Assembly (NCBI RefSeq): GCF_000473265.1
Contig: NZ_KI421511.1
Coordinates: 8,592,415-8,656,414, forward strand
Direction: 5' to 3'
From: Amycolatopsis thermoflava N1165
Lineage (GTDB): Bacteria; Actinomycetota; Actinomycetes; Mycobacteriales; Pseudonocardiaceae
Length of the DNA stretch: 64,000 bases
Part shown: piece by piece, positions 23,623 through 28,036 of the stretch
Position numbering within the stretch: the first letter of the stretch is position 1
Layout of the letters: every line of letters starts with the position of its first letter
Position numbers and translations under genes: made by a program
The notes under the pieces: generated by a model
What the model saw: the letters and a program-made list of their open reading frames with translations, nothing else
The model's database searches: none
Told to the model about the DNA's origin: nothing

Positions 23623-25344
23623 TCATGCCTCGGCGCGGATTTCGTTCAGGTAGTTGTAGATCGTGTAGCGGGTGACCTCCAGCTCACCGGCGAGGAAGTC
23701 CACCGCGTCCTTGATGAGGAAGAACCCGGCCTCGTCGAGCTCCCGCACCACCGCGGCCTTGTGCTTCTTCTTCATCAGCCCCACCGGGATCCCGGCCTGC
23801 GCGACCGCCCGGTCGACCAGGAACCGCTGGAGGCTGTCCACGTCCGGCGGGAAGCTCTCGGCCCGCACCTCGCTCGCCGGCCCCTGCGTCACCTCGCTGT
23901 TCACGCACAGGCAGCCGATCGCCACGCCGTCCGGATCGCGCAGGAAGATCGTCGACGAGCGGATCGGCCTGCCGTCCGGGCCGTGGGTCTCGTAGTTGGT
24001 CAGGTCATGCGTCGTGCCGCGGCGGACCAGCCCGAGCAGCAGGTCCGTCATCGGTCCGCCGGGTTCGCGGCCGGTGATGCCGCCCGCGATGGCGACGATC
24101 GAGTCGGGCAGCTTGGACAGGTCGTGCAGCACGACCTCGTTGCCGGGGCCGAGCATCGCGGCCAGTCCGCTCACCGCCGGGACCAGCGCGGACAGCACCG
24201 AATCGGTGGCGGCCGCGGACGGCACCCGGCTGGCGGGCAGCGGGCGGGACAGGTGCTCCAGCGCGGTGCGGACGGCCTCGACGGCCGACACCGGCGTGGA
24301 GGCGTGCGGGGAGAGCCGCACGTGCTCGGTGCGCACGGTCGCCGCGATGCCCTCCGTGGCCAGCACCGCCCCGACCCGCTCCGCCGGGTGCCCGGGCAGG
24401 CTGAACGCGAGGATCCCGGCGCGCCGGTCGGTCGCCGACACGATCTCCGCGCCGAGCGAGCGCAGCATCTCCTCGAGCTCGCCAACGCGCTCGGCGATGC
24501 GCGACTCGATGGCCGCCACCCCGGCCTCCTCGACCAGTTCCAGCGCCGCGGCGAACGCGCCCGACGTCACCGGGCTCAGGTTGCTCACCGACCACGACGC
24601 CGCGAACTCCGCGGGCGGGTGGATCTCGTCGTCGAACAGCCCGGCGTCGTGTGCGCCGGTCCAGCCCGACAGCACGGGCCGCATCCGCTCCAGCGCCCGG
24701 TCCGACAGCACCGCGAACCCGGTGCCCCAGCCCGCGCGCAGCCACTTCTGGCCGCCGACGACCAGCACGTCCGCCGCGTCCCACGGCGCGTCGACCACCC
24801 CGAAGCCCTGGATGCCGTCGACCACGAGCAGCCGGTCGCCCACGGTTTCCCGCAGCGCGGCGAGGTCTGCGCGGTAGCCGGTGCGGAAGTCGACCGCGCT
24901 GACCGACACCACCGCCGTGTCCGGGCTCAGCTCCGTCGCCACGACCTCCGGGGTCACGTGGCGGCAGCGCATCCGCCGCAGCGTGATCCGCCCGGCCTCC
25001 TCGGCCCGCGCCCACGGGTAGGTGTTGGCCGGGAACTCCGCGGCCGACACCAACACCTCGCCCGCCGGGGCGTTGAACGCGGCCTGGAACAGGCCCTGGC
25101 TGGTGTTGGGCAGCAGGACGACGTGGTCGGTGTCGGTGCCGCACAACCGCGCCACGGCCGCCTTCGCGCGGATCTCCTGCCGCATCAGGTCGTCCACTGT
25201 GGACGGGCCGGCCTTGGCCGAGGCGTGCAGCAGGCGTGCGGTGGTGTCCACGACGGCGTGCGAGGGCGGGCCGTAGCGGGCGAAGTCCAGGTAGCCGGCA
25301 GGCTCGTCGAACTGAAGCAGGTAGCTGGGCGAGATCCTGGCCAT
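23623..25344 (-). CDS. Class V aminotransferase fused to YheO-type PAS and HTH domain
   Basis: A 573-residue fusion. Residues 1 to about 370 are a fold-type I, class V PLP enzyme: LLPNTSQGLFQAAF (phosphate cup), D176 in VVDGIQG and the presumed Schiff-base lysine K200 in VVGGQKWLRAGWGTG. Residues about 385-500 form a YheO/DauR-type PAS domain (GNEVVLHDLSKLPDSIVAI, GAIGCLCVN-like IGCLCVNSEV). Residues about 515-570 are the matching HTH (KHKAAVVRELDEAGFFLIKDAVDFLAGELEVTRYTIYNYL). ATG at 25344 overlaps the ATPase stop (TGATG), so it is translated with the amino-acid importer. It resembles MocR regulators in logic but with the order reversed and a different aminotransferase class. Both halves look intact. 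I infer an amino-acid-responsive regulator, an enzyme, or both. Confidence 0.85.
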   Translation of the reverse strand: MARISPSYLLQFDEPAGYLDFARYGPPSHAVVDTTARLLHASAKAGPSTVDDLMRQEIRAKAAVARLCGTDTDHVVLLPNTSQGLFQAAFNAPAGEVLVSAAEFPANTYPWARAEEAGRITLRRMRCRHVTPEVVATELSPDTAVVSVSAVDFRTGYRADLAALRETVGDRLLVVDGIQGFGVVDAPWDAADVLVVGGQKWLRAGWGTGFAVLSDRALERMRPVLSGWTGAHDAGLFDDEIHPPAEFAASWSVSNLSPVTSGAFAAALELVEEAGVAAIESRIAERVGELEEMLRSLGAEIVSATDRRAGILAFSLPGHPAERVGAVLATEGIAATVRTEHVRLSPHASTPVSAVEAVRTALEHLSRPLPASRVPSAAATDSVLSALVPAVSGLAAMLGPGNEVVLHDLSKLPDSIVAIAGGITGREPGGPMTDLLLGLVRRGTTHDLTNYETHGPDGRPIRSSTIFLRDPDGVAIGCLCVNSEVTQGPASEVRAESFPPDVDSLQRFLVDRAVAQAGIPVGLMKKKHKAAVVRELDEAGFFLIKDAVDFLAGELEVTRYTIYNYLNEIRAEA

Positions 25345-26108
25345 CAGAGGATGCGCGCCAGGAACTGACGGGTGCGCTCGTGCTCCGGCGCGCCCAGGAC
25401 CTGCGCGGGCGGCCCGGTCTCCACGACCGCACCGTCGGCCATGAAGACGACCTCGTCGGCCACCTCCCGCGCGAACCCCATTTCGTGTGTCACGACGACC
25501 ATTGTCATCCCTTCGGCCGCGAGCGAGGTCATCACCTCCAAAACCTCGCCGACCAGTTCCGGGTCCAGCGCCGAGGTCGGCTCGTCGAACAGCATCAGCT
25601 TCGGTTTCATGGCCAGCGCCCGCGCGATCGCGACGCGCTGCTGCTGGCCGCCGGAGAGCTGGTCGGGGTGGGCGTCGGCGCGGTGCGCGAGGCCGACCCG
25701 GTCCAGCAGGTCCAGCGCGGTGCGGCGGGCCTGGGCGGGGGACAGTCCGCGCACCCGGACCGGGCCCTCGGTGACGTTCTGCAGCACGGTGCGGTGCGCG
25801 AACAGGTTGAACCGCTGGAACACCATGCCGATGTCCCGCCGCTGCCGGGCGACCTCGCGCTCGCGCAGCTCGTGCAGCTTCCCGCCGCGCAGGCGGAAAC
25901 CGACCGGCTCGCCGTCCACCCACACCTGGCCGCCGTCGATGGTCTCCAGGTGGTTGACGCAGCGCAGGAACGTGCTCTTGCCCGCGCCGGACGGGCCGAG
26001 CAGGCAGACCACCTGTCCCTTGTGGACGGAAAGGTCGACCCCGCGCAGCACCTCCGTGCCGGCGAAGTGCTTGCGCACGCCGACCGCGCGCAGCAGGGGT
26101 TCGGTCAT
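25344..26108 (-). CDS. Polar amino-acid ABC transporter ATP-binding protein
   Basis: A 254-residue GlnQ/HisP-type ATPase. Walker [11 protein letters not shown]-loop in VFQRFNLF, signature LSGGQQQR, Walker [14 protein letters not shown] and switch VVTHEMGF are all intact. It couples ATP hydrolysis to import with the permease at 26110-27021 and the binding protein at 27008-27952. The ATG is one base after the permease stop; its own stop overlaps the start of the aminotransferase fusion. Confidence 0.93.
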
Positions 26109-26109
26109 G

Positions 26110-27021
26110 TCAGGCCCTCCGCAGCGTGGTCAGGGCGCGGCCGACGCGCGACCACGGCCGCGCGGACCGCTGGTCGCCCGCGAACGCGCGTTCCAGGTAG
26201 TGCTGGCCGACGCTGGCGACGGTGACCACGACCATGTACCAGATCGCCGCCGCCAGCAGCGTCTCCATGACCAGCAGGTTGTTGGACGAGATGTTGTTGG
26301 CCGCGTGGATCAGCTCGGTCACGCCGATCACCGACGCCATCGAGGTGCCCTTGAGCATGTTGATGAAGTCGTTGCCGGTCGGCGGGATGATCACCCGCAT
26401 CGCCTGCGGCAGCACGATCCGCCGCAGCGTCATCGCCGGGGTCATACCGATCGACTTCGCCGCCTCGGTCTGCCCGCGGTCGACGCTGTTCAGGCCGGCG
26501 CGCACGATCTCGGCCATGTAGGCGCTTTCGTTGAGCGCGAGGCCGAGCAGCGCGGCGACGAACGCGCTGACGACGACGTTGGTCGGCTCGTGCACCAGGT
26601 AGCCGCCGCCGAACGGCAGCGGGATCGAGACGAACTCGAACACCAGCGCCAGGTTGAACCAGATCAGGATCTGCAGCAGCACCGGCAGCCCGCGGAACAG
26701 CCAGATGTAGACCGCGGCGACGACGCGCGCGACCGGGTTGGCCGACCGGCGCATCAGCGCGATCACCACGCCGATGACGATCGCCACGGCCTGCGCGATC
26801 ACCGCGAGCAGGACGGTGTTGAGCAGGCCGACCAGCATCACGTGGTACCACAGGAACTCCGGCACCGTGTCGTACTGGATCTGCGCCTGCGCGAGCACCA
26901 CGCCGAGCCCGGCGAGCAGGGCGACGATGACCACCGCCGACACCCAGCGACCCCAATGCCGCAGGCGCACGATGGGCAGTTCGGCCTGCGGCGCCCGGGT
27001 GGTCAGGTCAGCTTCCGGCAT
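26110..27021 (-). CDS. Polar amino-acid ABC transporter permease
   Basis: A 303-residue HisM/GlnP-type permease with about five membrane segments. The conserved EAA-type loop appears as [34 protein letters not shown]. An extended N-terminal polar region precedes the first helix. It overlaps the 3' end of the binding-protein gene by 14 bases. Only one permease is encoded, so it probably acts as a homodimer. Confidence 0.92.
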
Positions 27022-27952
27022 TGACGGTCACCTTCGTGATCGCGCCCTGCTTGACCCCCCACGCGTCGAGGATCCGGCCGTACGTGCCGTCGTCGACGAG
27101 CGCGGTCAGTGCGGCGGCGACGGCGTCCCGCAGCTGCGGGTTGGCCTTGTTGACGCCGATGCCGTACGGCCCGCCGTTGATCGGCTCGCCCGGCACGACC
27201 TCGAAGAACTCGCCGCCGCCCGCGTTCTTGCTGACGTAGGCCGCGGTCGGCAGGTCGTTGAGGATGGCGGCGACGCGGCCGGTGCGCAGCTGGTTCTGGT
27301 TCTGCGAGTCGCTGTCCGTGGCCGTCGTGGTGACCTCCGGCTTGCCTGCCTGGACGCACTTGGCGCTCTGCTCGGCGGCGAAGGTCTGGTGGCTGGTGCC
27401 CTGCACGACCGCGACGGTCTTGCCGCACAGCGAGTCCGGGCCGGTGATGCCGTCCGGGTTGCCCTTGCGGACCATGATCGTGATGCCGGAGGTGAAGTAG
27501 TCCACGAAGTCGATCTGCTGCTGGCGGGCCTGGGTGTCGTTCATCCCGGCCATGGTCAGGTCGAGGCGACCGGACTGCAGGCTGGTGATCAGCGAGCCGA
27601 AGGCCATGTCGGTGTGCTGGACCGTCAGGCCCAGCTTGGCCGCGACGGCCTTGGCGATGTCCACCTCGAACCCGACCGGCGTCTTGCCGTCGGCGGAGTA
27701 GAAGTTGTTCGGCGCGGACTGCATGTTCGAGCCGATGTTGAGCTTGCCTGCCTGGGCGACCGGAGCAGGTAGGCCCGCGGCGAGCTGCGGGTCCTTCGTG
27801 ACGCCCTGCAGGATCGCCGCAGTGTCCGGCACGCCCGATCCGGTGGTGGTGGCGCTCCCGGCGCCGTCGGACCCGCCACCGCAGGCTGCCGTGAGCAGCA
27901 GGCAGCCGACGACCACCGCGCCCCAGCGCGTCACCCGTGACCTCGCAGACAT
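27008..27952 (-). CDS. Amino-acid ABC transporter substrate-binding lipoprotein
   Basis: A 314-residue family 3 extracellular solute-binding protein. Lipobox LTAAC near residue 24, then the SBP fold: LNIGSNMQSAPNNFYSADGKTPVGFEVDIAKAVAAKLGL, SLQSGRLDLTMAGMNDT and a VVPGEPINGGPYGIGV segment. It captures a polar amino acid or opine-like compound; the ligand cannot be read by eye. It is the first gene of the four-gene minus-strand operon and lies about 40 bases downstream of the promoter at 27987-28015. Confidence 0.92.
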   Translation of the reverse strand: MSARSRVTRWGAVVVGCLLLTAACGGGSDGAGSATTTGSGVPDTAAILQGVTKDPQLAAGLPAPVAQAGKLNIGSNMQSAPNNFYSADGKTPVGFEVDIAKAVAAKLGLTVQHTDMAFGSLITSLQSGRLDLTMAGMNDTQARQQQIDFVDYFTSGITIMVRKGNPDGITGPDSLCGKTVAVVQGTSHQTFAAEQSAKCVQAGKPEVTTTATDSDSQNQNQLRTGRVAAILNDLPTAAYVSKNAGGGEFFEVVPGEPINGGPYGIGVNKANPQLRDAVAAALTALVDDGTYGRILDAWGVKQGAITKVTVNAGS

Positions 27953-27986: not shown

Positions 27987-28015
27987 ACGCTACAACTGCG
28001 TGTTGAAGACGTCAA
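27987..28015 (-). promoter_or_regulatory. Promoter of the amino-acid uptake operon
   Basis: On the minus strand TTGACG (28010-28015) and TAGCGT (27987-27992) are separated by exactly 17 bases, a good match to the vegetative sigma-70-type consensus. The start codon of the binding-protein gene is 34 bases beyond the -10. The two operator-like repeats at 27992-28006 and 28012-28026 overlap the spacer and the -35. Confidence 0.65.
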
Positions 28016-28026
28016 CTGTGAGTTGA
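27992..28026. promoter_or_regulatory. Twin 15-bp operator-like palindromes
   Basis: TCAACTGTGAGTTGA (28012-28026) is a perfect 6+3+6 palindrome. ACAACTGCGTGTTGA (27992-28006) matches it at 12 of 15 positions and is displaced by exactly 20 bp, about two helical turns. Both overlap the promoter of the operon that encodes the aminotransferase-PAS-HTH protein, so they are the natural candidate sites for that regulator and would suit repression. Confidence 0.6.
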
Positions 28027-28036
28027 AATCCGTGGG

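Follow-up and report, generated by a model that had tools for sequence, protein, structure and literature searches.

The gene at 23623..25344 on the minus strand of the window, by which we mean the whole 64-kb stretch of DNA analysed, codes for one chain with a class V PLP domain, a YheO-like PAS and an HTH, probably a bifunctional, PutA-like "trigger enzyme": a PLP enzyme of an import-and-degrade operon that doubles as the operon's repressor. At the level of sequence this reading is supported by the fusion itself, the operon, the gene coupling, the active site, the overlap of operator and promoter, the match between recognition helix and operator, and the loss of the regulatory half in relatives. 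From these we infer DNA binding, repression, a PAS acting as sensor, lyase chemistry and a feedback loop for the fusion. The protein is laid out as follows:

23623..25344, minus strand: fusion gene, 573 aa, class V PLP, YheO-like PAS and HTH (open reading frame and Pfam)
24337..25254, minus strand: Aminotran_5, residues 31-336 (Pfam E 4.7e-26, above the curated cut-off)
24747-24745, minus strand: codon of K200, inside the Aminotran_5 domain
23884..24192, minus strand: PAS_6 (YheO-like PAS), residues 385-487, putative effector sensor (Pfam E 8.9e-29, 100.1 bits)
23644..23820, minus strand: HTH_22, residues 509-567 (Pfam E 1.1e-19, 70.7 bits)
within HTH_22 of the fusion, minus strand: recognition helix VTRYTIYNYLNEI (helix comparison)

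The first-pass annotation had claimed a class V PLP domain, a YheO-type PAS and an HTH in a single intact frame of 573 aa, and this was confirmed; 25344-23623 is open for 573 codons without a stop, and PAS_6 is followed by HTH_22, both above their curated cut-offs, as in the YheO/DauR architecture. The homologue search gave 1708 proteins at E <= 1e-10 among 7998 scored candidates. As the same three Pfam domains were found in all of the 120 best homologues listed, and the same operon in 67 of 77 loci, the fusion is genuine and no artefact of the frame. The active site also looks as intact as proposed from K200 and D176: an alignment of 16 fused proteins shows no change at D176, Q179, K200, R343 or H347, the last two lying just beyond the Pfam Aminotran_5 match. 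The fold comparison covered residues 1-373; for the PAS-HTH half the fold searches taught us nothing, and a sequence search of the PDB at E <= 1 gave no match for it.

The nearest named relatives are from Amycolatopsis. Taking the best 80 of 93 candidates from a scan of species genomes, we obtained 77 loci, 67 of them with the order SBP (solute-binding protein), permease, ATPase, fusion and 10 without the importer; it should be noted that the 67 are related, mostly Amycolatopsis and relatives, and hence not independent. Among 296 genomes of the class 20 had a match at E <= 1e-30, with a full-length match to the fusion in the window's own genome only, and among 246 genomes of the phylum PAS_6 was found in 15 and joined to this PLP domain again only in the window's own. 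A 1346-aa open frame around PAS_6 in one genome (G089) was rejected as a fusion, since its YheO stands alone beside a threonine-synthase-like gene, and a split pair could not be taken as a feature of the genus of G208, which was alone among 150 genomes at E <= 1e-60. The annotation had asked whether the architecture is common and already characterised. Common it is, in Pseudonocardiaceae, Nocardiaceae and Mycobacteriaceae, but the literature searched, including that on YheO with RidA or selenocysteine lyase, held no description of it. One source already labels such proteins "selenocysteine lyase/cysteine desulfurase/predicted transcriptional regulator YheO", and the architecture may be among the five PAS6 architectures that, according to PMC4519771, are given in its supplement. 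In the tree, the copies of L056 (titled Rhodococcus rhodnii NRRL B-16535) and L065 (Nocardia sp. NRRL S-836) lie very near those of Kibdelosporangium and Lentzea, and these two genomes may be mislabelled.

The fusion gene is the last of an operon on the minus strand, preceded by three importer genes:

25344..26108, minus strand: ABC importer ATPase, polar amino-acid type (Pfam, NCBIfam)
26110..27021, minus strand: ABC importer permease, HEQRo_perm_3TM subfamily domain above cut-off (Pfam, NCBIfam)
27008..27952, minus strand: family 3 SBP, nearest solved relatives AncQR and glutamine-binding proteins

The postulated coupling to an amino-acid ABC importer was clearly seen. The fusion ATG overlaps the stop of the ATPase gene (TGATG), and in all 67 related loci the nearest in-frame start codon of the fusion is at most 3 bases from the end of the ATPase stop. 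No Ribonuc_L-PSP (RidA) match was found in the five proteins scanned, which were those of the four operon genes and of the next gene upstream. The scores of the SBP were 144.0 for the Lys/Arg/Orn model, 116.1 for Gln and 65.8 for EhuB, all below cut-off, the top-scoring row being StpK7, an unrelated-looking kinase model, at 161.1 (cut-off 900). Import of ectoine was not supported; the ATPase resembles EhuA (319.3 bits, cut-off 345.4), yet the SBP scores better against the Lys/Arg/Orn and Gln models than against EhuB. DauR responds to D-arginine, a lead to which nothing in the present results points. Homoserine (Rhizobium pRL8, L155) was dropped as substrate; passages of the pRL8 literature do not name the PLP gene.

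Two further class V relatives were observed. A stand-alone class V enzyme, 38-44% identical, sits in a conserved cluster in 12 genomes of family f38 (L108-L115, L117-L120), beside genes that we take to be uppS and phoH; the conserved cluster indicates vertical inheritance, so these relatives are uninformative about the substrate. A distant class V relative (42% identity) is found at L159:8001-9077 on Rhizobium sp. ACO-34A plasmid pRACO34Ad, in a stretch that also holds ABC transporter, nitrilase, radical SAM and FAD oxidoreductase genes and is perhaps a biosynthetic cluster.

Upstream of the SBP gene we detected a tandem motif and a predicted promoter:

27993..28027, minus strand: tandem predicted operator, sites 20 bp apart (motif search)
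28027-28013, minus strand: operator site 1, TTCAACTCACAGTTG (TTCAACN5GTTG)
28007-27993, minus strand: operator site 2, TTCAACACGCAGTTG (TTCAACN5GTTG)
27987..28015, minus strand: predicted promoter, -35 TTGACG at 28015-28010, 17-bp spacer, -10 TAGCGT at 27992-27987

Site 1 overlaps the predicted -35, and site 2 fills the 17-bp spacer up to the -10. The region 27992-28026, to which DNA binding had been proposed, thus holds two TTCAACN5GTTG sites and qualifies as a predicted operator; elsewhere in the 64-kb window the motif does not occur. The tandem pattern at 0-1 mismatch was found in one place of the 8.69-Mb genome, before the fusion operon, the next best places having 3 mismatches. In the stretch from 260 b before to 60 b after the estimated SBP start, all 67 loci have one or more exact CAACN5GTTG sites ahead of the SBP gene, against a background of 15 in the 1,148,318 b making up the rest of the same loci (0.004 per 320 b). 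The consensus of the 104 exact sites is TTCAACN5GTTG: position -1 is T in all of them and position -2 in 103. The spacing to a further exact site is 20 bp in 35 of the 67 loci and 22 bp in 2; in the remaining 30 the second site deviates at one of eight positions (24 loci) or at two (6 loci). At most one mismatch is reached by 0.5% of shuffles and at most two by 5%, hence the second sites in the 6 two-mismatch loci may be due to chance. Directly 3' of the proximal site T[AG]NNNT is present in 67 of 67, preceded at 16-19 b by a -35-like triplet in 66 of 67 under a loose rule.

The tandem site could bind another protein than the fusion. Querying plasmids with the unfused L122 regulator gave 22 records, 19 of which were examined; H77, H80 and H81 were left out, each equal in match identity and coverage to an examined record. 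In four of the 19 loci (L153, L172, L176, L177) the regulator has an exact site no more than 400 b upstream, with 8 sites in these four and a background expectation of 0.22, the regulator starts being estimated in seven unannotated records. L170 has two sites between RidA and an amino-acid permease, and L122, outside the 19, one before a permease. The helix R[FY][TS][IV]YNYL[NDE]E is found in all 7 loci, that of the window among them, whose module has a site, and in none of 25 other YheO regulators, all of them without a site within 400 b upstream. For this association Fisher's test gave p 3e-7, or 1e-5 when L131 and L175, with a site elsewhere in the locus and the helix absent, are counted as site-bearing; the rows are not independent, and the helix was first noticed in three of the seven site loci. 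Near-miss helices go without a site, as in L174 and L178 (SRFTVYSYL), L181 and L184 (SRASIYNYL) and L121 (SRVTAYNYL). The YheO paralogue of the window's own genome (L123) was rejected as reader of the site, having a different helix and no site; its matched stretch contains 1 TAG. CAACN5GTTG is a candidate cross-phylum operator of one YheO subfamily. The motif occurs in unfused YheO loci (L153, L170, L172, L176, L177) of Rhodococcus, Streptomyces and Betaproteobacteria, L153 being from Rhodococcus and L172 from Variovorax. For E. coli YheO, ChIP-exo on pyruvate medium is described in PMC6892915.

That the operator belongs to another regulator while the fused HTH acts elsewhere is very improbable: some YheO modules (L174, L178) do lack the site, but the site tracks one YheO recognition helix into other genera and Betaproteobacteria, and the single tandem place of the genome adjoins the fusion operon.

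RidA proteins remove enamines and imines, and a PLP enzyme partnered by one is hence probably a lyase or deaminase. RidA lies within the stretch in 12 of the 19 plasmid YheO loci, by annotation in L153, L171-L175, L177, L178, L180, L183 and L187 and by tblastn (37% identity) in L170. In 9 of the 19 it is accompanied by an annotated PLP enzyme, which is of class V in L153, L172, L174, L177 and L178, threonine synthase in L171 and L187, alanine racemase in L173 and MalY/PatB in L175. Seven of the 19 records are unannotated and were searched with 22 query proteins only, which found no RidA in six of them; the annotated L182 has neither RidA nor a PLP enzyme. Split modules of YheO, class V PLP enzyme and RidA are seen in L122, L153, L172, L174, L177 and L178, and in Phyllobacterium L174 and Rhizobium L178 they form an unfused analogue with SBP, two permeases, class V enzyme, RidA and YheO. 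This company of unfused YheO genes, often beside a PLP enzyme and RidA, suggests a lyase or deaminase; as the window's operon has no RidA, the suggestion is carried by unfused relatives whose PLP domain is 27-32% identical. An IS26-family transposase on an E. coli plasmid is closely followed by a cassette of YheO, alanine racemase, M20 peptidase and RidA genes in this order (L173:4989-8414). In Campylobacter, PMC4519771 describes a YheO-type regulator (CfiR) that represses an adjacent RidA-family gene, the genes being always linked. Unlike in that paper, where an adjoining RidA gene is general, the link is missing in the window's operon and in 7 of the 19 plasmid loci.

In the mechanism that we favour, the operon would import an alpha-amino acid and then degrade it. 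The N-terminal class V PLP domain would be the active part in this, with an eliminating lyase or deaminase more probable than a transaminase. The C-terminal YheO-type PAS-HTH half would be the repressor of the operon, with fusion dimers on the tandem TTCAACN5GTTG sites overlapping the -35 and the spacer and blocking transcription. A PAS ligand, either the imported compound or its PLP product, would take the repressor off the DNA. With enzyme and repressor on one chain, each repressor would also remove inducer, so that the operon would be shut off once the substrate is gone. The earlier idea that the fusion could both sense and process the imported compound is consistent with all of this. Against the trigger enzyme stand the L174 and L178 modules without the site and L131 and L175 with the site but not the helix.

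Of known systems, PutA is among the closest. As described in PMC5293562, trifunctional proline utilization A is a single chain acting as catabolic enzyme and autogenous repressor of its regulon. The fusion likewise carries an enzyme-type and a DNA-binding domain on one chain, with binding and catalysis predicted, but has class V PLP, YheO PAS and a C-terminal HTH_22. The YheO/DauR/CfiR regulators share PAS_6-HTH_22 with it and often lie beside amino-acid PLP genes and RidA, but usually stand alone, whereas here the regulator is tied to a PLP domain in an operon without RidA. The Rhizobium mimosine module MidABC and MidD, an ABC importer and an aminotransferase degrading an imported non-protein amino acid according to PMC3333776, is likened to it by description. 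SufS/CsdA cysteine desulfurases, the cystine C-S lyase C-DES and kynureninase are class V PLP enzymes at about 20% identity. The fusion has the PLP-binding Lys with Asp and Gln of a cysteine desulfurase, and was nevertheless rejected as one for low family scores (NCBIfam sufS 56.3 bits, cut-off 475.1) and for a segment, RLSPHAST, without the catalytic Cys of the C-terminal loop; in the alignment its F104 takes the place of His121 in B. subtilis SufS, which is the position altered in 7ceq.

The label "mirror-image MocR" given at first pass did not hold, as HTH type, domain order and the separate PAS sensor all differ. MocR/GabR/EnuR/PdxR do have, like the fusion, an HTH and a fold type I PLP domain in one chain, but with an N-terminal GntR wHTH, an AAT-like (class I) effector domain at the C-terminus and no PAS, according to PMC6677901. 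The fusion has an N-terminal Aminotran_5 and no GntR wHTH, its sole HTH above cut-off being the C-terminal HTH_22 at 509-567. Class V alone would not exclude a MocR, since Aminotran_5 makes up 0.09-5.64% of the matches of MocR groups in a table of the same paper. In a MocR-like mode of action the PLP domain would be the sensor, and the external aldimine of the imported amino acid would cause a change of shape that is passed to the C-terminal HTH. The PLP domain joined to an HTH beside an importer, and the Lys retained as in MocR, speak for it. We nevertheless hold it to be unlikely, as the separate PAS sensor means that the PLP domain need not be the sensor, the full active-site set beyond the Lys is invariant in the 16 fused proteins, unfused class V partners adjoin RidA, and the PLP domain exists alone in 8 loci, with purifying selection in the pairs tested.

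These last loci are among the 10 without importer, 8 of which have the PLP domain without a PAS-HTH match in the locus (L070, L072, L075, L076, L077, L079, L081, L082). L071 has a stop after the PLP domain and a broken remnant of the PAS-HTH half, while in L084 the PAS is gone and HTH_22 is still in frame. The complete three-domain fusion was not found at E <= 1e-20 in any of these 10 genomes, of which that of L079 is a metagenome bin. In a tree of 56 PLP domains, including 28 fused rows chosen from 68, starred branches put regulator-less copies inside groups of fused ones five times: L070 in the clade of the window, L072 beside L036, L071 beside L043, L084 beside L051, and Actinophytocola with L079 inside a starred clade of 25; the placement of L081 and L082 is less sure. 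The tree indicates that the regulatory half was lost, wholly or partly, at least five times. The remnants prove the loss in L071 and L084, and for the other regulator-less loci loss is a simpler reading than repeated fusion. F104, D176, Q179, K200, R343 and H347 are kept in all 10 PLP domains of these loci, and in the other ten listed columns the changes are E103 to D in L082 and R154 to H and L256 to P in L081. In hand-chosen pairs omega was 0.10-0.31 (eight pairs with regulator-less copies) and 0.13-0.20 (three fused pairs). With the active site kept and purifying selection after the loss, the PLP domain probably has a function independent of the regulatory half, and its conservation points to catalysis.

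Alternatively, the two halves may both be active without mutual influence, the fusion merely fixing a 1:1 ratio. Both halves exist apart elsewhere (L122, L153, L174), in L122 with the regulator gene first, opposite to the fused order, and the linker is of low confidence at 370-375 (pLDDT < 50). Such mere co-expression seems quite unlikely to us because the fusion is kept across three families despite its easy loss (10 of 77 loci).

Further, we speculate, as a doubtful extension of the trigger enzyme, that the fused PAS might sense the product of its own PLP domain within the chain, and that a cross-phylum TTCAACN5GTTGAA YheO family exists. The product would be an enamine/imine or 2-oxo acid, so that catalysis itself would set the DNA switch, and the YheO family would run modules of PLP enzyme, Rid protein and importer for toxic or unusual amino acids.

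According to PMC4519771, it is scarcely known what YheO-type regulators sense. For such regulators the present family brings together a predicted operator, its cognate helix and an enzyme on the same chain, hence the substrate of the enzyme would point to the ligand of the regulator, and vice versa. If the trigger enzyme reading is true, a PLP member would be added to the enzymes that repress their own operon, and the repeated natural splitting would serve as a ready-made experiment on what makes such fusions arise and come apart.
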